From assembly GCF_002287235.1 (NCBI RefSeq), contig NZ_LMVP01000279.1, forward strand, positions 1 to 35,823: a stretch of DNA of 35,823 nt. Direction: 5' to 3'. The notes under the pieces are model-generated. The model saw only the letters and a program-made list of their open reading frames with translations. It was not told the DNA's origin and did no database searches. Within the stretch, counting starts at the first letter, position 1; every line of letters begins with the position of its first letter. The DNA is from Methanosarcina spelaei (GTDB lineage: Archaea; Halobacteriota; Methanosarcinia; Methanosarcinales; Methanosarcinaceae). Below are positions 5,558 through 33,950 of this stretch, in pieces. Both the position numbers and the translations under genes were made by a program.

Positions 5558-7558
5558 ATGAAGAGATTCGCAGCAGTGACACTGGCTGCTCTCATGCTTC
5601 TGACTGTATTTGCATCCGCCGCAAGTGCAGCAGACACACTTGAGATCCGCGGTCCTGTGTTTAACGGCTCTAATATCGACGACATTGTCGGCGATGGCAT
5701 TACAATTGATGCTACTCAATTTGCAGCATTCTACTATGATATTGACGATAACGTCACAACCGAAACTCTTTCCATTAAAAACGTTGCCGGAAACAATGGT
5801 AATGTAATTGGAGAGGGCGGAATTGTATATTCAACCACTATTCAGAAGGTTGACTACGAATATGAAAAGCCAAGCCTTGGCTGGGACAACTACAGCTTGC
5901 TTGGTTTCTTCGCAGACAAATACATCCCTCTGAAATCCAACAGCGCTGACAAACTTGCCAAGCTTGTTATGGACAGCGATGACAAAGTCACTCTCAAGAC
6001 CGGCGATACCCTTGACCTCGGTGAAGGATACTCCCTCCAGGCCAGGCAGGTAGATGTCGATGGTGACAAAGTCTGGCTCGAGTTCGACAAGGACGGAGAA
6101 CACGTAGATGACGAAATAGTCAATGTTGGAGAAGGTGACAGCACCTGGGACGTCGAACTTGATGACATCCAGGATGAAGACGATGTTGTTGTCATGAAAG
6201 TCCATGTCAACCAGGTATTCCAGGGTGCAGTCGACAGTGTTGCACAGATTGAAGGTATCTGGCTCATTGACTACGCAAACGCCATAAAGATTGAGTCTGA
6301 TGACGAATTCGGCGAACTCAATGATGTTTCCATTAACGGTAACACCCTTAACATTACCAACGAAGACACTTTCACTCTGACCAGAGATTCCACAAATGAA
6401 CTCGCTGAAGGTCTGTCTTTCAAAGTCGCTGACACCCCAAGCAATGTGCTCAGGTTCTATCTTGCAAAGGATATCACCGAGCCCGGAACTTATGAAATAA
6501 GAGGAAGTGTCGCCTCCGGACCAGCTACCTGGGACGCAAGCAACTTTGCAGGTTTCTACTACGACCTTGATGACAATGTTCAAACAGAAAACCTCAGCGT
6601 TTCCAAACTGAATGGAAATGTAATTGGAGAAGGTGGCCTCGTTTACCAGACCTCCGTTAAGAAGGTTGACTACGAATATAATAAGCCAAGCCTTGGATGG
6701 GACCAGTATCCAGTTATTGGTTTCTTTGCAGAGGAATACATTCCACTGAAATCCAACAGCGCTGACAAACTTGCCAAGCTTATTATGGACAGCGATGACA
6801 AGGTCACTCTCAAAACCGGAGATACCCTTGACCTCGGTGATGGATACTCTCTCCAGGCCAGGCAGGTAGATGTCGATGGTGACAAAGTCTGGCTCGAGTT
6901 CGACAAGGACGGAGAACACGTAGATGACGAAATAATCAATGTTGGAGACGGTGACAGCACCTGGGACGTCGAACTTGATGACATCCAGGATGAAGACGAT
7001 GTTACTGTCATGAAAGTTCATGTCAACCAGGTATTCCAGGGTGCAGTCGACAGCGTTGCACAGATTGAAGGTATCTGGCTCATTGACTACGCAAACGCCA
7101 TAAAGATTGAGTCTGATGACGAATTCGGCGAACTCAATGATGTTTCCATACAGGGAAATACCCTCAAGATCAGCAATGAAGACACCTTCACTCTGACCAG
7201 AGACTCAGATCAGGATATTGCCGAGGGCATGTCTTTCAAGATCGCTGACACTCCATCCAGTGAACTCAGGTACTACCCATTCGTTACGAAGACTGTTGGT
7301 AACGTAACTAACAACACAAGCGACAGCATCCCCAAACCTGTTGACAACGTAACTGACAACGTAACTAACGTAACAACAACCCCTGATACTACGGACGACG
7401 TGAACGCATCAGACGATACTGATGAGACACCAGCTACCACAACCCCAGAGACAAACGCATCTGATGATGAAAAGAAGGAAAACTCCCCAGGATTCGGAGT
7501 TGTTCTTGGACTTGTCGGACTCGTTGGAGTTGTCTACCTCGTCAGGAGGAACAATTAA
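5558..7558 (+). CDS. Major S-layer protein with two DUF1608-type domains
   Basis: This 666-residue protein forms the proteinaceous cell envelope lattice of Methanosarcina. A signal peptide covers residues 1-24 (cleavage after SAASA). Two tandem S-layer domains follow, about residues 25-295 and 300-580; each carries LSNG-like GNVIGEGG, YEY.KPSLGWD, EYIPLKSNSADKLAKL and the acidic DVDGDKVWLEFDKDGEHVDD block. A Thr/Asn/Asp-rich linker with many NxT/S sequons (NVTDNVTNVTTT) precedes a C-terminal PGF motif, one membrane helix and a final RRNN, the layout of a PGF-CTERM anchor processed by archaeosortase. GGAGG at 5544-5548 fixes the start. Length and architecture match the known major S-layer proteins of the genus. 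A hairpin terminator follows at once, so it is transcribed alone. Confidence 0.96.
   Translation: MKRFAAVTLAALMLLTVFASAASAADTLEIRGPVFNGSNIDDIVGDGITIDATQFAAFYYDIDDNVTTETLSIKNVAGNNGNVIGEGGIVYSTTIQKVDYEYEKPSLGWDNYSLLGFFADKYIPLKSNSADKLAKLVMDSDDKVTLKTGDTLDLGEGYSLQARQVDVDGDKVWLEFDKDGEHVDDEIVNVGEGDSTWDVELDDIQDEDDVVVMKVHVNQVFQGAVDSVAQIEGIWLIDYANAIKIESDDEFGELNDVSINGNTLNITNEDTFTLTRDSTNELAEGLSFKVADTPSNVLRFYLAKDITEPGTYEIRGSVASGPATWDASNFAGFYYDLDDNVQTENLSVSKLNGNVIGEGGLVYQTSVKKVDYEYNKPSLGWDQYPVIGFFAEEYIPLKSNSADKLAKLIMDSDDKVTLKTGDTLDLGDGYSLQARQVDVDGDKVWLEFDKDGEHVDDEIINVGDGDSTWDVELDDIQDEDDVTVMKVHVNQVFQGAVDSVAQIEGIWLIDYANAIKIESDDEFGELNDVSIQGNTLKISNEDTFTLTRDSDQDIAEGMSFKIADTPSSELRYYPFVTKTVGNVTNNTSDSIPKPVDNVTDNVTNVTTTPDTTDDVNASDDTDETPATTTPETNASDDEKKENSPGFGVVLGLVGLVGVVYLVRRNN
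5931..6333 (+). repeat. S-layer internal DNA repeat, copy 1
   Basis: This 403-bp block recurs at 6747-7149 with a constant 816-bp offset (272 codons) and only about a dozen mismatches by my reading. Sequences on either side of the block, still inside the same protein domains, are much less alike at the DNA level. Confidence 0.9.
6747..7149 (+). repeat. S-layer internal DNA repeat, copy 2
   Basis: Second copy of the 403-bp block at 5931-6333. Identity stops abruptly after TGTTTCCAT, where the two domains diverge (ATTAACGGT against ACAGGGAAT). Confidence 0.9.
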
Positions 7559-11808: not shown

Positions 11809-14412
11809 TTAAATTAGGATATGAGAATCTACAAGAGGCAGATAATCAATACCCTCTGTATTTACGGCATAAACTGCATCACATATGCCATCACCGTTTT
11901 TATCAGCATGGGTCTGGCTGAAGCCATCCCCTTTTGGAGTAGCCCAGAAATTCCCACCAAGGTAAGACCCATCAACAATATTTTTTTCCGGTGTTAGGGT
12001 TGTGTTCAGACTCGTACCTGTGTTTGAACCTTGCAGGTAGATGTTATTTACATTGTTGAAATAGTTATTATAAACCGAGCTGTTTCCCGAATCTAGCAAA
12101 TATAACCCATATTCCGAGTTTAAAGTAACCCTATTACTGTCCAGAATATTATTTCCGGAGAAACCTAGATAGATTCCGTGCACGGAGTTTGAGTTTGCCT
12201 GGTTACCTGACAGCCTGTTATAGCTGGAATTTTTTAAATAGAAACCGAACCTGTTATTCGATACGTTATTGTCACTCAGATTATTGTTACTGGAATAGGC
12301 AACCCACATCCCGTAATTGCTACCGGATACCGCATTATTGAGAAACTCATTTTCACTGGAGTTCTGCAGGTAAATGGAGACATAATTGTTCGAAGCTGCA
12401 TTATTAATTAATGTGTTTTTGGCCGAATCCCAGACACTGATTCCAGACCCGTCGCTGTCTGACGCACTATTGCCTGTAAGAACATTTCCGCTTGATGCCT
12501 TTACGTGAATACCGATCTGATTATTTAATACCCTGTTGTCGTTCAGTTTATTATTATTGCTCGAAGAATACAACCATAAACCGTAATTGCTATCCGACAC
12601 CGTGTTATTGATAAGCAGGTTTGCGCTGGAATTCCTCAGAACGACAGAAACACTGTTTTTCGAGGCTGTAGAATTGCTTAATGTATTTCCTACAGAATCC
12701 CACAGACTTATACCGGAATTTGTATTATCTGATACCTTACTGTTGCTAAGTACATTTCCGCTGGAAATTTTCAGATAGGCCCCGATTTTATTGTTTGATA
12801 AAGTATTTCCGTCCAGTGTATTATTGCTAGAAGAATCCGCCCAGATACCATAGATGCTGTCGGATGCCGAGTTATTGAGAAGCGTATTTTCCGTGGAATT
12901 ACGCAGGAGAACTGAAATTCCGTTTCCTGAGACTACATTACTGTCCAGAAGAGCACTGCTGGAAGAGTCAAGAATGATTCCAGATCCTACACCCGAACCT
13001 GAGTTATCGAGAATAAAGGAATTGTTCGCACTGGAAATGTTTAAAGTCGGATCTGTGTAATTGTTTGAGACCCGGTTGCTTTCGATATTGCAGTACTTAA
13101 CTCCATTAAGGTGAATGCCTGATCTGGGGTGGTTTACAGGCCCCGTGATATTCAGTCCGCGAATTGTCACTCCGTCCGCGATAATATAGAAAACATCATC
13201 CAGACTATTAGCTGCCTTGATAATAGTGTCCCAGCTAGTATCCCCACGACTGAAAGATTGGGAGGTAAGGGTCAAATTTGTAACGTGCACGTCGACGTTT
13301 TCTTCATAGATACCCGGGAAAATAAGGATCGTGTCACCAGGAAGTGCATTGTCTATTGCCGCCTGGATAGAAGTAAAATCTGCAACCGGGCCAGTACTGT
13401 TATTAACAGTAATCACTGCAGGCTCTGATCCTTTGATGGGAAGATAATCTATGAACTGAGTGCCTCCAATATTATACTGGGAATCAAAAATTCCGTCAAG
13501 GTCAATGTCCCTGGATTTTTCAGGATATATAGTACCATCGGGTTTTGCCCAGATATTGCCTCCGAGATAAGGACCACCAGCTATGTTAATACCCTCGGTT
13601 TTAGTCACGTTCCAGTTATTTTTGTCCGATACTGTTTCGGACTCTATGTTTACCGTGTTATTGAAACAATTATTGTAAATTAGATTGTTTGAAGTTTCGT
13701 AAATAAACATTCCTGATTTCTCATTGAGGACTACAGTATTACCTACAAGGATGTTGCTGTTTGATTCGCCTGTGAGATAAATACCTTCTGTATTTTTAGA
13801 GATTAGATTATTCTCCAGGACATTGTTAGAGGAATCAAAAAGTGAAATTCCGTTACTGCAATTTGAGATTAAGTTATTACTCAAATTATTGTATATGCCG
13901 CCGCCAAGACTGATACCGGTCAGACAGTTCGAAATTTCATTATTATCAAGCTTGTTGCCTGAACTCATTATGTATAGATCGATACCGTAGCTGTTATTTA
14001 ACAGTTTATTGTTTTCAATGCGGCAATCAGTAAATCCGAGAACATGAACTCCTGAGGATTTGGATCCACTTATGCCAAAACCTTTAATGCTTACGCCGTT
14101 TGCCAGGATACTGAAGATATCCTGAGAGACATCGGCTGCCCGGACTATAGTATCGGAGGAATTTCCAGATTCGGAAGCAATAGATATGTTCTTGTTAACT
14201 ACGATATTCTCCTCATAAGTACCGGGTTTGACAATTATTTCATCTCCTGGACTTGCAGAAATCACAGCAGCCTGAATGGTGTTGAAATCTGCAATCTGAT
14301 CAGTGCTGTTGTCTACATAAATTAAATTAGCTGCTGCACTTCCTGCAGTAACCAGGTAAAGCGCAAGAGTCACTAGAAAAATAACTTTGCTGAGTTCTTT
14401 AACATGCATCAT
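11809..14412 (-). CDS. Secreted NosD-type parallel beta-helix surface protein
   Basis: An 867-residue exported protein made of two right-handed beta-helix modules (NosD/PbH1 repeats). Each module opens alike (YVDNSTDQIADFNTIQAAV; ITVNNSTGPVADFTSIQAA), has a P-G-x-Y-E-E-N turn, and then dozens of roughly 22-residue rungs with N-N ladders such as SGNVLSNSKVSDN. Each module ends in a YLGGN(I/F)WA segment followed by a DxDxDG or DKNGDGICD calcium-type loop and IDYLPL. The open frame extends to 14526, but GGAG six bases before the ATG-ATG at 14412 and the signal peptide (VIFLVTLALYLVTAGSAAA) that starts there fix the start. Such proteins bind or cleave polysaccharide, or act in adhesion; no catalytic residues can be assigned. 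Probably displayed on the cell surface. Confidence 0.88.
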   Translation of the reverse strand: MMHVKELSKVIFLVTLALYLVTAGSAAANLIYVDNSTDQIADFNTIQAAVISASPGDEIIVKPGTYEENIVVNKNISIASESGNSSDTIVRAADVSQDIFSILANGVSIKGFGISGSKSSGVHVLGFTDCRIENNKLLNNSYGIDLYIMSSGNKLDNNEISNCLTGISLGGGIYNNLSNNLISNCSNGISLFDSSNNVLENNLISKNTEGIYLTGESNSNILVGNTVVLNEKSGMFIYETSNNLIYNNCFNNTVNIESETVSDKNNWNVTKTEGINIAGGPYLGGNIWAKPDGTIYPEKSRDIDLDGIFDSQYNIGGTQFIDYLPIKGSEPAVITVNNSTGPVADFTSIQAAIDNALPGDTILIFPGIYEENVDVHVTNLTLTSQSFSRGDTSWDTIIKAANSLDDVFYIIADGVTIRGLNITGPVNHPRSGIHLNGVKYCNIESNRVSNNYTDPTLNISSANNSFILDNSGSGVGSGIILDSSSSALLDSNVVSGNGISVLLRNSTENTLLNNSASDSIYGIWADSSSNNTLDGNTLSNNKIGAYLKISSGNVLSNSKVSDNTNSGISLWDSVGNTLSNSTASKNSVSVVLRNSSANLLINNTVSDSNYGLWLYSSSNNNKLNDNRVLNNQIGIHVKASSGNVLTGNSASDSDGSGISVWDSAKNTLINNAASNNYVSIYLQNSSENEFLNNAVSGSNYGMWVAYSSNNNLSDNNVSNNRFGFYLKNSSYNRLSGNQANSNSVHGIYLGFSGNNILDSNRVTLNSEYGLYLLDSGNSSVYNNYFNNVNNIYLQGSNTGTSLNTTLTPEKNIVDGSYLGGNFWATPKGDGFSQTHADKNGDGICDAVYAVNTEGIDYLPLVDSHILI

Positions 14413-14526
14413 GGTAAGCTCCGCGTTAGAATTTAGAGAAATTCCTGAGGTTTTGTTTTTGTAGCATTTGTCGGAGTTATTAACCGAATAAGGAGAATTT
14501 ATGTGAGATATCACAGGATGTTTCAA

Positions 14527-20335: not shown

Positions 20336-20510
20336 ATAGGAATAAGACTTCCTAGATAGCAATATTTATATGTTTGTATCTTTTATTGGAATAACTAATA
20401 TTCCACAAGACAGAACAAAAAAGAAAACGGTGTAAATGTGGAATTGATACTGTTTGATAACGTAAGTTTTTCCTTAATGGAGATACTGTTATTAAAATTA
20501 TAATCTGAAT

Positions 20511-20519
20511 ATTATAAAG
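20511..20519 (+). promoter_or_regulatory. TATA box of the three-gene cluster
   Basis: ATTATAAAG lies about 45 bp before the first ATG of the cluster and predicts a start of transcription near 20540. Position and sequence only. Confidence 0.5.
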
Positions 20520-20560
20520 GGAGAGAAAATACTGCTCAAGGACATATCAGGCGGAATGGT

Positions 20561-21808
20561 ATGAAAGCAATTGACGAAACAATGAGTATATACCAGATCT
20601 TAAGTGAATACCCATATTTACTAAAAATATTCAAACAGCATGGAATGGAGAAATTTGAAAATAAGGAAGTTCTCGAAAAACTTGGCCCTTTACTGAAATT
20701 GAAAACAGCCCTATCAATGGTATCGCTGAACAAAGACTCCTTTATTAAGCTCCTTAATCAGGCTATATTAGACAATGAAACAAAAAGAGATTTTACCCTT
20801 GCAGATTCCCCGGAGCGGCAAAAAGAGCTGACCCTTCTTGCCCTTTTGCCCTGCGGCATGAAGATGCCCTTTAACCGTGCATTTGATAACTTCTCAACTG
20901 AGTACAGCAGACAAATGAATAATGTGCTCCATTCTCTCGTGGAAGGAAATGTTAATCATGAACTTTCCTATTATGCCTATATCGATCTGATTACATCGAT
21001 TGACGAACTGCCGGACATAATTGTAAGTTCTGATATTAACAGCTTCTACCACAAATCCTTCCAAGAGAATTTTCTCAATAAGGAATATTTTATAAATCTT
21101 GCTCCAGCTCCCATGAACATTGATTTTGAATCCATCGGTTTTGCCGATCCCCGCAGCCAGTTTACCATGATTTCTGCAAACCTTCTTGTTCTTGTCACGA
21201 TAGATGAACTCATGAAGGATAATACCAGACCAGAATCCTGGGAAGATCTTTTAAAAGACGAGCACCGGAACAAGGTCGTTATGCGGGGACAGGATGGTTT
21301 TTTCTGTAATGGAGTACTCCTCCCTTTCTACCGACTTTACGGTATGGAAGGAATTAAAAAGCTTGCTTCGTCAGTATATACAGGAATCCATCCGTCCGAA
21401 ATGGTCAAAATGATAGACAGCAAAAAAGATGATGTACCACCAATGTATATCATGCCTCTCTTCTTTGCCAAGAAAATTCAGGATAAATCCCGGATAACAA
21501 TTAATATACCTTCAGAAGGAACTATTGTAAGTCCTGTACAGATGCTGGTTAAAAAAAGTGCGGTCGAACGGGTTAAAGAGATTACTGATTTTATCTGTGG
21601 AAAAGAATTTGGGGAAATCTCTGCCAGAGCCTTTTTCCCAACAACGAACCCTGAAGTTAATAATAATCTTGAAAGTAACCTTGGAGGAAGAAACTCACTC
21701 TATTGGCTGGGCTGGGATTTTTTGATGAATACTGACATAGGAAAGCTTAAAAACGAAATTGAAGAAATTTTCAATAAACAGTTTTATGAGACAGGAGGTG
21801 TTGTGTGA
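20561..21808 (+). CDS. Cytosolic solute-binding-protein-like protein with DUF1858-like N-terminus
   Basis: Residues 1-65 (IDETMSIYQILSEYPYLLKI then FKQHGMEKFE) match the DUF1858 helical domain often found beside redox and metallocluster proteins. The remaining 350 residues look like a periplasmic-binding-protein fold of the iron/thiamine type: LPDIIVSSDINSFYH, an FADPR segment, PESWEDLLKDEHRNKVVM, GIKKLASSVYTGIHPSEMVK and a C-terminal ITDFICGKEFGEI block. There is no signal peptide, lipobox or membrane helix, so it should stay in the cytosol, unlike a true transporter-binding protein. It overlaps the next gene by 4 nt. A ligand such as a metal or small cofactor is a reasonable inference; the fold assignment itself is moderately sure. 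Confidence 0.75.
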   Translation: MKAIDETMSIYQILSEYPYLLKIFKQHGMEKFENKEVLEKLGPLLKLKTALSMVSLNKDSFIKLLNQAILDNETKRDFTLADSPERQKELTLLALLPCGMKMPFNRAFDNFSTEYSRQMNNVLHSLVEGNVNHELSYYAYIDLITSIDELPDIIVSSDINSFYHKSFQENFLNKEYFINLAPAPMNIDFESIGFADPRSQFTMISANLLVLVTIDELMKDNTRPESWEDLLKDEHRNKVVMRGQDGFFCNGVLLPFYRLYGMEGIKKLASSVYTGIHPSEMVKMIDSKKDDVPPMYIMPLFFAKKIQDKSRITINIPSEGTIVSPVQMLVKKSAVERVKEITDFICGKEFGEISARAFFPTTNPEVNNNLESNLGGRNSLYWLGWDFLMNTDIGKLKNEIEEIFNKQFYETGGVV

Positions 21809-22518
21809 GGCTTGTTACGGTAGCAGGTCCTCCCTCATCAGGAAAAACCAGTATCATTATCAAGACCATAGAAGAGCTCAGACAGAAGGGTTTTTCAATC
21901 GGTGTGGTAAAATTTGACTGCCTCTCGGCTCAGGATGAGAATCTCTATTCCACTCACAATATTCCGGTCAAAACCGGGCTCTCAAGAGGACTCTGTCCTG
22001 ACCACTTTTTTGTAAGCAATATTGAAGAAGCTCTCAAGTGGGCCAAAGGGAGAAGTTTTGATTTTTTGATTACCGAGAGTGCAGGCCTTTGCAACCGCTG
22101 TTCTCCCCATATTAAGAATGTTCTGGCAATTTGCGTTATTGATAACCTGAGTGGTGTCAACACACCTAAAAAAATAGGCCCAATGTTAAAACTTGCAGAC
22201 ATTGTTGTTATTACTAAAGGGGATATTGTGTCCCAGGCAGAGCGTGAAGTCTTTGCATACAGAGTCAGACAGGTTAACCCCAGAGGAATGATAATTCAGA
22301 TCAACGGCGTTACAGGACAGGGTAGTTTTTATCTTGCAAAACTCATGGAAAAAACCTCTATAATTGAAACCCTTCAGGGAGCTACACTTCGGTTTACCAT
22401 GCCCGGAGCTCTGTGTTCATACTGTCTTGGAGAGAGAAAAATCGGGGACGACAAGCAGATTGGTGTTTCAAAGCTGGTAAATTTCAGAGGAGAAGAACAG
22501 GCTAAGGGAGAAGAATAG
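21805..22518 (+). CDS. HypB/UreG/CobW-like GTPase with CxxC motifs
   Basis: A 237-residue P-loop protein of the SIMIBI class that contains the metal-chaperone GTPases. Visible are GPPSSGKT (residues 8-15), a VKFDC segment, ITESAGLCNRCSPH, which takes the place of the ENSGNLVCP motif of HypB, and VITKGD as the G4 motif. A second Cys pair, GALCSYCLGERK, sits near residue 200. Two CxxC motifs suggest bound metal. The start is GTG, with AGGAGGT (21793-21799) 5 nt before it, overlapping the upstream stop by 4 nt, so the pair is translationally coupled. The stop is TAG within an 18-bp tandem repeat (see findings). In HypB and UreG, GTP hydrolysis drives nickel delivery; the metal here is unknown. 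Confidence 0.82.
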   Translation: MRLVTVAGPPSSGKTSIIIKTIEELRQKGFSIGVVKFDCLSAQDENLYSTHNIPVKTGLSRGLCPDHFFVSNIEEALKWAKGRSFDFLITESAGLCNRCSPHIKNVLAICVIDNLSGVNTPKKIGPMLKLADIVVITKGDIVSQAEREVFAYRVRQVNPRGMIIQINGVTGQGSFYLAKLMEKTSIIETLQGATLRFTMPGALCSYCLGERKIGDDKQIGVSKLVNFRGEEQAKGEE

Positions 22519-22572
22519 GCTAAGGGAAAAGAACAGGCTGAGGAAGAAGAATAGGCTAAGGGAGAGGAATAG
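22492..22572 (+). repeat. 18-bp in-frame repeat at the end of the GTPase gene
   Basis: Units of the form GAAGAA(C/T)AGGCTAAGGGA begin at 22492, 22510, 22528 and 22546, with a partial fifth at 22564. Each is six codons in the GTPase frame (E-E-Q/stop-A-K-G). The third codon is CAG, TAG, CAG, TAG, TAG in order; the first TAG (22516-22518) is the annotated stop. Confidence 0.92.
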
Positions 22573-22573
22573 A

Positions 22574-23587
22574 TTGCGGACAGATTTGCTTCACATGACG
22601 ATAAACGAACTCAGGAAGATGATGCCCTGGATAGAGGATTACTTCTCTGCGTTTGCAATTGATTCCGTACATTATGGGAATGAAAAACTGGAAGAGCTGG
22701 GTTCGATACTTGGTGAAGATTATTTTATTGAGATGGAAAGCAGCTCTTTTGCCTTTATTGATGGTTTCTTTCTATTTATTGAACAGGCCAGAGCTCTTCA
22801 ACAGGGAAACGGGTTCACGGTCGAATCACTAACCGTGCTCCCTGGACGCAATAAGAATGATGAAAAAGAAGCCTTTTCGATAGAGCTAAAAAAAGGCGAG
22901 GTGACAGCAATTGTCGGTCCGACAGGATCAGGCAAGTCACGTCTTCTGGCTGATATAGAATCTCTGTCTCAGGAAGATACTCCAACCGGCCGGAAAATAC
23001 TGGTTAATGGCCGAGCTCCGGATGACGAGGAGCGTTTCTCAACTGAAGGGCGTTTTATAGCTCAGCTTTCACAGAATATGAACTTTGTTATGGATCTCAG
23101 TGTCGAGGAGTTTCTAACCCTGCACGCAGAGAGCCGTATGGTTAATGAGATATCCCATGTTGTTCAGAAAATATATGATACTGCAAACATCCTGGCAGGA
23201 GAACCTTTCAGCAGGGAAACTCCTGTTACGGAACTTTCAGGAGGACAATCACGCGCTTTAATGATTGCAGATACCGCACTTCTCAGTCCGGCATCTGTCG
23301 TCCTGATCGATGAGATTGAGAATGCAGGCGTTGACAAGATTAGATCTCTGGAACTTCTGGTGAGTAATAACAAGATTGTTTTAATCAGTACTCACGATCC
23401 TCTTCTTGCTCTATCGGCAGATCAGCGACTGGTTATTCAAAATGGCGGGATTTCAAAACTATTAAAAACCACACAGGATGAAAAAAAGTACCTGAAGAGC
23501 CTCGAAAAAATAGATAACAAACTTACTTTTCTCCGAAATCAGTTGAGAAGGGGTGAAGAAATCGACTTCAGCGATTTTCCGGTGTAG
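22574..23587 (+). CDS. Soluble ABC-type ATPase of the GTPase cluster
   Basis: The 337-residue protein has an N-terminal helical region (residues 1-75) and one ABC nucleotide-binding domain: Walker A GPTGSGKS (115-122), a Q-loop near 164, signature LSGGQ (221-225), Walker B VVLIDE (242-247) and the H-loop His274 (ISTHDP). The signature to Walker B order is complete, so it should hydrolyse ATP. It has no membrane segments and no permease gene follows. The N-terminal TINELRKMMPWIEDYFSAF is similar in style to the DUF1858-like start of the first gene. The start is TTG with GGAGAGG (22561-22567) 6 nt upstream; the next ATG (22595) lacks a ribosome site. The stop is TAG. It works presumably with the two upstream proteins. 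Confidence 0.82.
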   Translation: MRTDLLHMTINELRKMMPWIEDYFSAFAIDSVHYGNEKLEELGSILGEDYFIEMESSSFAFIDGFFLFIEQARALQQGNGFTVESLTVLPGRNKNDEKEAFSIELKKGEVTAIVGPTGSGKSRLLADIESLSQEDTPTGRKILVNGRAPDDEERFSTEGRFIAQLSQNMNFVMDLSVEEFLTLHAESRMVNEISHVVQKIYDTANILAGEPFSRETPVTELSGGQSRALMIADTALLSPASVVLIDEIENAGVDKIRSLELLVSNNKIVLISTHDPLLALSADQRLVIQNGGISKLLKTTQDEKKYLKSLEKIDNKLTFLRNQLRRGEEIDFSDFPV

Positions 23588-24050: not shown

Positions 24051-24287
24051 ATGGCTGCTACAACTACAGTTTGTCTTGAACCTAGAGTAAAAGAGATGTT
24101 AAATGGCTTAAAAACCCACCGAGAAGAATCTTATAGCTCCGTAATCGAAAGGATTGCAACTATGGCTTATGATAGCGAGCCCTTAACAAACAGTGAAATT
24201 ACAGAAATTGAAGAAAGCCTGAAAGACATAAAAGCAGGAAGATACTATAGCGAAGATGAAGCAAAGAAAATGTTAGGTATAGACTAA
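24051..24287 (+). CDS. Antitoxin of a RelE-type toxin-antitoxin pair
   Basis: A 78-residue protein with a ribbon-helix-helix-like N-terminus (TTTVCLEPRVKEMLNGLKTH, then ESYSSVIERIA) and an acidic C-terminal helix (EITEIEESLKDIKAGRYYSE) that ends DEAKKMLGID, the usual layout of archaeal VapB/RelB-type antitoxins. The N-terminal part would bind the palindrome just upstream, and the C-terminal helix would wrap the toxin. Its stop TAA shares one base with the toxin ATG, so the two are co-translated. There is no strong ribosome site, and the message may be nearly leaderless. Confidence 0.85.
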   Translation: MAATTTVCLEPRVKEMLNGLKTHREESYSSVIERIATMAYDSEPLTNSEITEIEESLKDIKAGRYYSEDEAKKMLGID

Positions 24288-24550
24288 TGTACACTGTTCA
24301 GTATACTTCACACGCTATTAAGGATATCAATAAACTGCCACCTGAAGTTAGAAAAAGAATTTTTGATGCGATTAATGGGATTAAGGAAAATCCGTTCTCA
24401 CACGTCAAGAAATTAAAAATGTCTCCTGACTCACCTATCCATTCTTTGAGAGTAGGAGAATATCGAGTACTGTTGAATATTACACGATCACAGCTTATTA
24501 TTTTTGTAATAGGAGCTGGATATCGAAGCACAGTTTACAGAAAATTTTAA
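24287..24550 (+). CDS. RelE/ParE-superfamily toxin
   Basis: An 87-residue protein with the complete RelE fold order: YTVQYTSHAIKDINKLPPEV, RKRIFDAINGIKENPF, KLKMSPDSPIHSLRVGEYRV and LLNITRSQLIIFVIGAGYRS, ending VYRKF. The LRVGEYRVL strand and the final basic Y-R are typical of ribosome-dependent mRNA interferases. It is intact and starts within the antitoxin stop codon. It likely cleaves mRNA on the ribosome when the antitoxin is degraded. Confidence 0.9.
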   Translation: MYTVQYTSHAIKDINKLPPEVRKRIFDAINGIKENPFSHVKKLKMSPDSPIHSLRVGEYRVLLNITRSQLIIFVIGAGYRSTVYRKF

Positions 24551-31082: not shown

Positions 31083-33950
31083 TTACTCCCAAAACTTTTT
31101 TGTCTTCACATAATTTCTCTCTGCAACCAGAATATCCCTGTAAAACGCCTCTTCATCCACCCTCATTTTTTCAATCACCCTTGATGCTGTCTCAGGCCCT
31201 ATTCCTCGGCTTGCAAGTGCAATAACCGCCTTCTTTCCCTGAGAACGGACTATGCTTGCGTTTCTGTAAACTCTCTGTATTCGTTTCTTTTCTTCAGCTG
31301 AGACATTGACCTTTTTTGCCTGTTTTTTGACAAGGTTGATTTCCTCTTCTTCCCAGGGTTTGAGGGCTGCAATCATCCTGGACTCACAGACAGGGCAGAC
31401 GATTTCTTCAGGTACGCTCTTAACCTGCCTGCGAGAAGTCCATTTCTTGCAATTCGTACAGAATAAAACAATTCTGTCGTTCATAATGCGTTCCTTAAGA
31501 GCAAGTACGATTGAACGGTCAGCTTTTTCCGGTGCGACCAGGTCTTTCTTCATGGCAAAGCCAGCTGAACCTATCGGGGTTGGCATGGAGACTTCAACTG
31601 AAATTTCGCCGGCTGCAAGTTTTTTAAGGACTTCTTTTGTTCTCGGGACATCAAGCAGGTCGTGGAAGATTTCGCGGATTACCTCATCGTACATCGAAGA
31701 GCCCTGGTAGATTTCCAGCAGCTTTTTCATGCTTATCCGATCGTAATCAATATCCTGAGAAAGGGCTCCGAACTTTCTGGCTACGTGGACCATTTTCCAT
31801 TTCATCAGAGTTGTATTTTTCAGGGTCATTTCTATAATCGGCTCAACGTGTTCAGGGCGAAGGGAAAGCAGCATATCTCGGATCTGGAAAGAGCCTACCC
31901 GCCTCGGAAGGGTCAGCTTTATCCTGTAAGGATCTACTTCCTGAGCAACACTGCTCCCGAAACGGGCTGAAAGAAGTGAAGTCAGGACCCTGGCAAGAGT
32001 GCCGTTTGTGTTATGGCCGAAACAGGCGTTCAGGGTCACAGCATCTCCTTCATCCTCGATCACAATCGTATCTGCATCAGGCAAAGGGAAACCTCCTTCC
32101 ACATGTTCGCGTACCAGGCGGATCAGTTCTAGCACGGCATTCCTTGTTACGGGGTATTTTGCCTGTAACTGTCTGGCAATAGCTTCATCATTAAGTTCGG
32201 CACGGATAAAAGTTGCAATCTCCGACCTGAGTTTTCCCACATCCTGGGCGACCTCAAAAGGCACAGGGATTTCTTCTCCGGTCCAGCTAGGAACCTCACC
32301 CATACCTTCCACAGGCTCGACCTTGATCCTGTCCTTTCCCTGCTCGCGGTCAGGCATCTCAACGACACGCCACATGTAGCCTTTAGTTATGAAAACGGCT
32401 CCAGGTTCTGCAAAATTCACGACAAAGGCTTCGTCCAGCACACCGACCGATTTTCCACTTACAATATCATAGATTTCGTACTTTTTTTCATCCGGGATCA
32501 TGGATAGGTTCTCGTAATAGTATTCCCGGCTATTCCTGCGCCTTTTGACTATATTTGAACCTTTTTCGTGCCAGACCAGTTTGTAATCCCCTATCTGGTT
32601 CACAACCCTTTGAAGCTCCTCAGGCTGAAGATTCCGGAACGGGTACGTCCGTTGAAGAATTCGAAGAATTTTATTAATTTCGACATCTCCAAAATCCATA
32701 ACCATGCCTGCGATCTGATTTGCTACTACATCCAGGGATTTTATATGCGGAGAAACCTCCTCAACCCTGCCTTCCAGCGCAGCTTTCGTAATTGCCATAC
32801 TTTCTGCAGTATCGTCAACCTCCATAGAAATGATAGTGCCACGTGAAATTGAATGCAGCTTATGCCCGGCCCTTCCGACTCTCTGGAGCAGCCTTGAAAC
32901 CTGACGTGGGGATCCGTACTGAATCACCCTGTCGACCTTTCCGATATCGATTCCAAGCTCCATCGACGAGGTGCAGATAAGGCCTCTGAGAGCTCCTGAT
33001 TTGAAAGCTTCCTCGGCTTCAACACGGGCTTCAAAAGAAAGCGAACCATGGTGAACCCCTATGGATGTTCCGAGTTTCCGAAAACCGGCAGCTAGAGCTT
33101 CGGCACTCTGCCGAGTATTTACAAAAATAAGAGTGGACTGGCTTTCTTCGACAATTTTCCTGATGCAGAGCAGGTGAGAGGCAAATTCAGGTTCGCAGCC
33201 GACTGTTTTTGCAATGTCCAGTACTTCTTTTTCCCGTATCTTTCCCCCTTCCGAAACCTGAGGATTAACCACATCGAACTCAAGCAGTTTTAACAGAGCT
33301 ACCTCAATTACGGTAAAATCTCTTCCATTACCTGCCAGAAACTTTGCAATTTCCCAGGGGTTCCCTACTGTCGCTGAAAGTCCTATTCTCTGAAACTCTC
33401 CTGAAATTTCCACAAGCCTCTCAAGCCCAACAGCTAGCTGAGTTCCCCGTTTTGAACCTGCAAGTTCATGGATTTCGTCTATCACCACGTGAGTTACGGT
33501 TTCAAGGTTCTGACGCAGGCGGGAACCGGTAAACATTGCCTGTAAGGTCTCAGGAGTTGTTATCAGTACATCAGGAGGACTTCTAGACTGGCGTTGCCTT
33601 TCGCTTTGCGGAGTGTCACCGTGTCGAACCTGGACTTTTATGTCGAGCAGCTTCCCAAGAATCTCAATGCGAGAGAGCATATCCCTATTAAGAGCCCTCA
33701 ACGGAGTTATATAAAGGGCAGAAATCCCTTTTCTGGCTTCGGGTTTCTTTCTCAGAATATTGTCAAAAACAGGCAGCACGGCTGATTCGGTCTTGCCAGA
33801 ACCTGTAGGAGCTATCAAAAGAGTATGCTTTCCATCCATTATGTGAGGAAATGACCTTTCCTGAGGTTCTGTGGGTTTTGTAAAGCCAAGAGTTTTGATG
33901 GCTTCCTGAATCTTTGGGTGAAAAGTGTTAAAGATGTTGTGAAATGACAT
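31083..33950 (-). CDS. lhr: Lhr-type superfamily 2 helicase with zinc finger
   Basis: A 955-residue DNA helicase of the archaeal Lhr family, thought to work in DNA repair or replication-coupled recombination. In order: Q-motif region ([10 protein letters not shown]), Walker A APTGSGKT (47-54), motif Ia [20 protein letters not shown] (158-161), SAT (GLSATVGNP), [26 protein letters not shown] and the RVGRAGH motif VI. A winged-helix and Lhr-core region follows, then four cysteines C831/C834 and C852/C855 for zinc, and a helix-hairpin-helix-like tail ([15 protein letters not shown]). Length is in the family range. The gene has no ribosome site at ATG 33950, so a leaderless message is possible. 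A relic of its C-terminus lies at 28915-29060. Confidence 0.95.

Follow-up and report, generated by a model that had tools for sequence, protein, structure and literature searches.

Three adjacent genes of Methanosarcina spelaei, all on the plus strand at positions 20561-23587 of the 35,823-nucleotide stretch of DNA analyzed here (the window), encode a protein with a solute-binding-protein fold (the carrier), a HypB/UreG-like GTPase and a single-domain ABC ATPase. The set is real and conserved, and its predicted function, judging from its sequences, is NTPase-driven delivery in the service of a metallocofactor. The window trio falls in a clade that is linked to nitrogenase, and we consider the chances about even that it is a nitrogenase accessory set, which would bind an ingredient of the cofactor and hand it over. 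The features of the trio and its promoter, with the evidence for each, are:

20339..20352, +, possible operator, a dyad GGAATAAGACTTCC conserved on the 5' side of the TATA box (12 distinct promoters)
20362..20371, +, TATA box ATATTTATAT (promoter alignment)
20561..21808, +, cytosolic solute-binding-protein-fold protein, 415 aa (Pfam, AF2 and Foldseek, 23-sequence alignment, tree)
20570..20746, +, N-terminal DUF1858 domain of the carrier, lacking the CxxC of the redox-disulfide form (PF08984, residues 4-62; matches solved structure 2fi0)
20852..20854, +, Cys98, within the invariant LPC motif, putative ligand (the same in all 23 aligned sequences; 93% of 88 sequences have Cys here)
21389..21391, +, His277, within the HPSxMVK motif, putative ligand (the same in all 23 aligned sequences)
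21805..22518, +, HypB/UreG-like SIMIBI GTPase, 237 aa, GTG start (family profiles, alignment, fold comparison)
21994..22005, +, CPDH motif, C64-H67, which lines up with UreG's CPH motif (invariant in the GTPase alignment; UreG alignment)
22090..22101, +, CxRC motif, C96 and C99 (invariant in the 23-sequence GTPase alignment)
22414..22425, +, C-terminal CxxC, C204 and C207 (invariant in the 23-sequence GTPase alignment)
22574..23587, +, single-domain ABC ATPase, 337 aa, TTG start, without a membrane partner (Pfam, alignment, AF2, fold search)
22574..22810, +, DUF1858-like N-terminal helical domain of the ABC protein (hhalign against the carrier N-terminus; helices in the AF2 model)

An earlier reading of the window, made from the sequence alone, had described three genes within 3 kb, the GTPase start overlapping the end of the carrier gene by 4 nt, behind one TATA box. 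The ORF coordinates agree with this description, and the TATA box is conserved in the promoters of Methanosarcina and Methanolobus. The same sequence-only reading had noted a first protein without a signal peptide, a SIMIBI GTPase with two CxxC pairs, a complete ABC domain and no permease, and each of these observations was borne out. The carrier is not exported: its N-terminus is the helical DUF1858 domain, matched by PF08984 and helical in the AF2 model, and the sequence contains no hydrophobic stretch there. Both cysteine pairs of the GTPase (CxRC 96-99 and CxxC 204-207) are invariant, and the one ABC domain retains all of its catalytic motifs. No permease gene is present in the window gene set, and none of the families counted among the neighbors of the trio is a conserved permease. 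Also found in the window are two small overlapping ORFs 3' of the trio (24051-24550) that resemble an antitoxin/RelE-type toxin pair, an S-layer protein (5558-7558), a NosD/beta-helix repeat protein (11809-14526) and an Lhr-type helicase (31083-33950).

The carrier matches the Pfam families SBP_bac_6 (4e-60) and DUF1858 (8.7e-12). Its AF2 model (pLDDT 86.7) is closest by Foldseek to binding proteins of the FbpA/FutA/PotD type, the nearest solved folds being ferric, phosphonate and polyamine binding proteins. Residues LPC98, H277-P and WGW are invariant in the alignment of 23 sequences, and the position of the tyrosine pair of FbpA is occupied by Phe-Phe. The GTPase matches the cobW/HypB/UreG domain of Pfam (6.6e-13) and scores far below the NCBIfam cut-offs for HypB (50 against 121 bits) and UreG (34 against 204 bits); nickel delivery to hydrogenase or urease was rejected on these scores. 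In the ABC protein (AF2 pLDDT 87.2), Walker A, Q loop, LSGGQ, Walker B and H loop are all conserved, and the nearest solved folds are ABC domains, including that of the soluble Fe-S assembly ATPase SmsC. A feature absent from the sequence-only reading is the start of this protein, whose N-terminal 79 residues are homologous to the DUF1858 domain of the carrier (hhalign probability 96.8%, E 2.5e-10). Since the two proteins have this domain in common, it may serve to dock them together.

A scan of one genome per species yielded 80 close loci, in most of which the order carrier-GTPase-ABC is kept; they are found in Clostridia, desulfo-bacteria, Deferribacterota, Spirochaetota, Fusobacteriota and Methanosarcinaceae. 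Recurrence in so many phyla places the arrangement far beyond chance, and the conserved neighborhood that the sequence-only reading had proposed looking for, with the GTPase and ABC genes linked, is thus present. A maximum-likelihood tree of 88 carriers includes two clades, which we term H (60 rows) and N (26 rows; support 97/86), and the window carrier falls in the latter. Hcp, YgbA or an 80-aa CxxC protein is adjacent to the trio in 41 of the 60 H-clade loci and in 0 of the 26 N-clade loci. The commonest neighbor family is that of the Crp/Fnr regulators, in a locus set that is mostly H clade. The published HcpR2 motif GTAACnnnnGTTAC (PMC1274295) lies upstream of 17 of the 80 carrier genes, all in the H clade, compared to 11 of 1174 control genes. 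When one mismatch and the other HcpR motifs are allowed, HcpR-type motifs precede 39/60 H-clade and 2/26 N-clade trios. These neighbors and sites predict that the H clade belongs to the response to NO. The 80-aa protein, encoded 3' of the ABC gene (L066, 6984-7235, and 22 other H-clade loci), carries MH[DE]GC and CxxC-type cysteines and has no match in Pfam or NCBIfam. Molybdenum-cofactor genes were considered as partners of the H clade and are near some of its loci, but they are not prominent in the neighbor family counts. A further form, GTPase-ABC-short carrier, occurs at five loci (L051, L156, L158, L159 and L161); loci of this form lie near NitT/TauT-type or FecBCD importers, ModE-like genes and molybdopterin oxidoreductase genes.

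The N clade keeps different company. In Geobacteraceae, the genes SBP-GTPase-ABC-modE-modA-modB-modC-nifH-nifD-nifK run on one strand at L095; at L046 the trio is followed by nifH, modD and modABC; at L087 and L109 nifO lies immediately 5' of the trio; and at L110 the contig that carries the trio also has, some 18 kb away, an anfHDGK-modE-modD-modABC-nifHD island. Several of these key loci are MAG contigs. No match to nifH/D/K, nifO, ModA or ModE was found in any H-clade locus. Of 23 N-clade genomes, 21 have a NifH that scores above its curated cut-off, compared to 6 of 25 in the H clade (p 2e-6), and among 31 Methanosarcina genomes the trio occurs in 8, AnfG/VnfG in 8 and both in 7 (p 2e-5). 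The genomes that carry the trio may be closely related to one another, so these p values overstate independence. The exceptions are the divergent N-clade rows L152 and L153, where NifH does not exceed the cut-off, one Methanosarcina genome with the trio and no AnfG/VnfG (G003), and one with the reverse (G011); the GTPase frame is split in one genome (G019, locus L044). Most Methanosarcina lack the trio, and nitrogen fixation as such therefore does not require it. An alternative nitrogenase as sole partner was rejected, since of 49 genomes beyond the first set only 6 have AnfG/VnfG.

The window ORFs include no nif, mod or nifO gene adjacent to the trio. The window genome does have nitrogenases, with vnf genes on its contig 35 and anf genes on its contig 90, and a diverged paralogue of the trio lies on contig 35 just beyond the vnfEN of vnfHDGK-vnfEN. 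In two relatives the vnf-linked paralogue adjoins homocitrate synthase and FecBCD-type genes. The carrier of the window genome's paralogue (L113; contig 35, 6660-9618) is a 77-aa piece at the end of the contig, with a transposase-like ORF next to it; L114 and L115 contain longer copies. A search for NifQ, run without a positive control, gave no match in any of the 24 N-clade genomes covered, so that a different donor could act there.

The promoter offers a further lead. A dyad GGAA-N6-TTC[C/T] stands 5' of the TATA box in 12 of 12 distinct promoters from Methanosarcina and Methanolobus; GGAA and TTC are invariant, all six spacer positions vary, and the final base is C or T according to genus. 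The dyad equals the Methanococcus NrpR consensus GGAAN6TTCC, and NrpR targets include nif and molybdate transporters (PMC2723118). We regard it as a possible operator and NrpR control as a lead only, a tentative assignment because the nifH promoters of Methanosarcina carry GGTTN6TTCC, unlike the dyad of the trio. A genome-wide search for dyad plus TATA returned four sites, of which the window has two and reading frames contain at least two, and so defines no regulon. The region from the TATA box to the start of the carrier gene (20372-20560) includes an inferred leader of about 165 nt that is well conserved in Methanosarcina.

Taken as a nitrogenase accessory set, the trio might work as follows. 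The signal-less carrier would hold one ingredient of the nitrogenase cofactor in the cytosol, in a cleft near C98 and H277, and pass it on to cofactor assembly. The GTPase, with its metal motif, would switch the handover on and off, a part that HypB and UreG play in nickel delivery. The ABC ATPase would dock through its DUF1858-like domain and use ATP to open the carrier or to drive the transfer. The cargo would most likely be a heterometal, Mo or V, as an oxyanion or in thio form, which we favor over Fe or S because of the mod neighbors and the vnf paralogue. The sister H clade may do a corresponding job around the hybrid cluster protein under nitric-oxide stress. The sequence-only reading had proposed a cytosolic machine for metal or cofactor insertion; the cytosolic set, its linkage and a metallocofactor context stand (nitrogenase here, Hcp in the sister clade), and the holding and insertion of metal we infer. 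It had named Ni-, Fe- and Co-dependent enzymes and the methyl-CoM reductase activator, whereas the genomic context favors nitrogenase (Mo/V/Fe). The proposal at its widest is that a novel cytosolic machine, made of an inward-moved binding-protein fold, a GTPase and an ABC ATPase, provides the heterometal for the nitrogenase cofactors of anaerobic diazotrophs that lack NifQ, and that a sister machine acts under NO stress in the maturation or repair of hybrid cluster protein; this is possible, and we lean against its holding in full.

The iron-only context of the sister clade does not favor Mo or V. Because that clade appears to serve the hybrid cluster protein, iron or sulfur is a serious rival as cargo: the module may handle iron, sulfide or damaged Fe-S clusters, common to nitrogenase and the hybrid cluster protein, and not be specific for a heterometal. 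Unusual Fe-S enzymes adjoin both clades, the carrier fold is closest to ferric-binding proteins, the predicted NO regulon of the H clade is a setting in which Fe-S clusters suffer damage, and a distant GTPase/ABC pair adjoins the sulfur-inserting CoM synthase (PMC12068725). Set against these points, molybdate genes repeatedly adjoin the N clade and the carrier has Phe-Phe at the FbpA tyrosine position, and we find this explanation rather doubtful.

A role for the window trio in nitrosative stress, together with Hcp, was favored at first from the neighbors of its bacterial relatives. The gene order is the same in the H clade, whose GTPases are 60-68% identical to that of the window and whose ties are to Hcp, YgbA and HcpR sites, and the window genome encodes an Hcp-family protein. 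Such co-occurrence is weak evidence by itself, for Hcp is widespread (in a sample of 199 genomes from one bacterial phylum, 146 have it) and every relative has prismane-family matches. The explanation was dropped because the carrier tree separates the window from the Hcp loci and the marks of the H clade, both neighbors and motifs, are absent or rare in the N clade, which associates with NifH instead. The window trio itself has no adjacent Hcp, YgbA or 80-aa CxxC protein and no upstream HcpR-type site. We judge such a role unlikely.

We think it similarly improbable that the trio regulates or protects nitrogenase, by sensing the metal or nucleotide state or by switching activity off, and delivers no cargo. 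Two NTPases and a ligand-binding fold could make a sensor, and the trio occurs with all three nitrogenase types. However, in profile searches of Pfam and NCBIfam its proteins matched no domain of a kinase, an ADP-ribosyl transferase, PII or a DNA-binding protein, and the conserved Cys/His motifs look like those of metal-delivery GTPases. An ordinary ABC importer with its permease encoded elsewhere is very unlikely, for while the carrier and ABC protein belong to transporter families, the carrier lacks a signal peptide, no permease family is conserved beside the trio, and the importers near its relatives bring their own ATPase.

The role of nitrogenase supply, if correct, addresses the open question of how organisms that lack NifQ, methanogens included, bring Mo or V to the nitrogenase cofactor. 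Three named genes, present in a genetically tractable methanogen, are open to direct deletion and assay. The analysis also connects an undescribed protein set with the regulon by which anaerobes respond to NO, and relates the two to an unexplained ATPase/GTPase pair of coenzyme M loci.

Each component of the trio has known counterparts. The carrier shares the two-lobe fold of SBP_bac_6 proteins such as FbpA, FutA and PotD, but has neither signal peptide, FbpA tyrosine pair nor permease, and adds a DUF1858 domain. The GTPase has the SIMIBI fold of HypB and UreG and a Cys-Pro-His-like metal motif in the same place; it differs in its extra CxRC and C-terminal CxxC and in its partners, a binding protein and an ABC ATPase. 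SufC/SmsC and the methyl-CoM reductase activator A2 are, like the ABC protein, soluble ABC ATPases engaged in metallocluster work; the trio lacks the SufB/D partner of the former, and A2 contains two ABC domains compared to the single one here. To NifQ and other Mo donors for FeMo-co the likeness is only the proposed place in the pathway, and the trio has no sequence relation to them. Sites of the HcpR regulon (PMC1274295) are present at the H-clade relatives, which adjoin hcp, whereas the clade of the window is without them and the available part of that paper does not name the trio. The sequence-only reading had known of no described system of this make-up. A literature search that covered few subscription papers likewise found no description of the whole trio, its function or a link to nitrogenase or Hcp, but its GTPase/ABC pair has been reported: an ATPase, a "Ni2+ binding GTPase" and a COG2000 Fe-S protein, of unknown role, adjoin coenzyme M genes (PMC12068725). 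We also found the pair with COG2000 in clostridia, as ABC-GTPase-COG2000 triplets (L129-L144) near which no coenzyme M genes were recognized. The coenzyme M-linked pair is homologous to the ABC ATPase and GTPase of the trio (about 40-50% identical) and differs in having no binding protein, no DUF1858-like domain on its ABC protein and a different target pathway.
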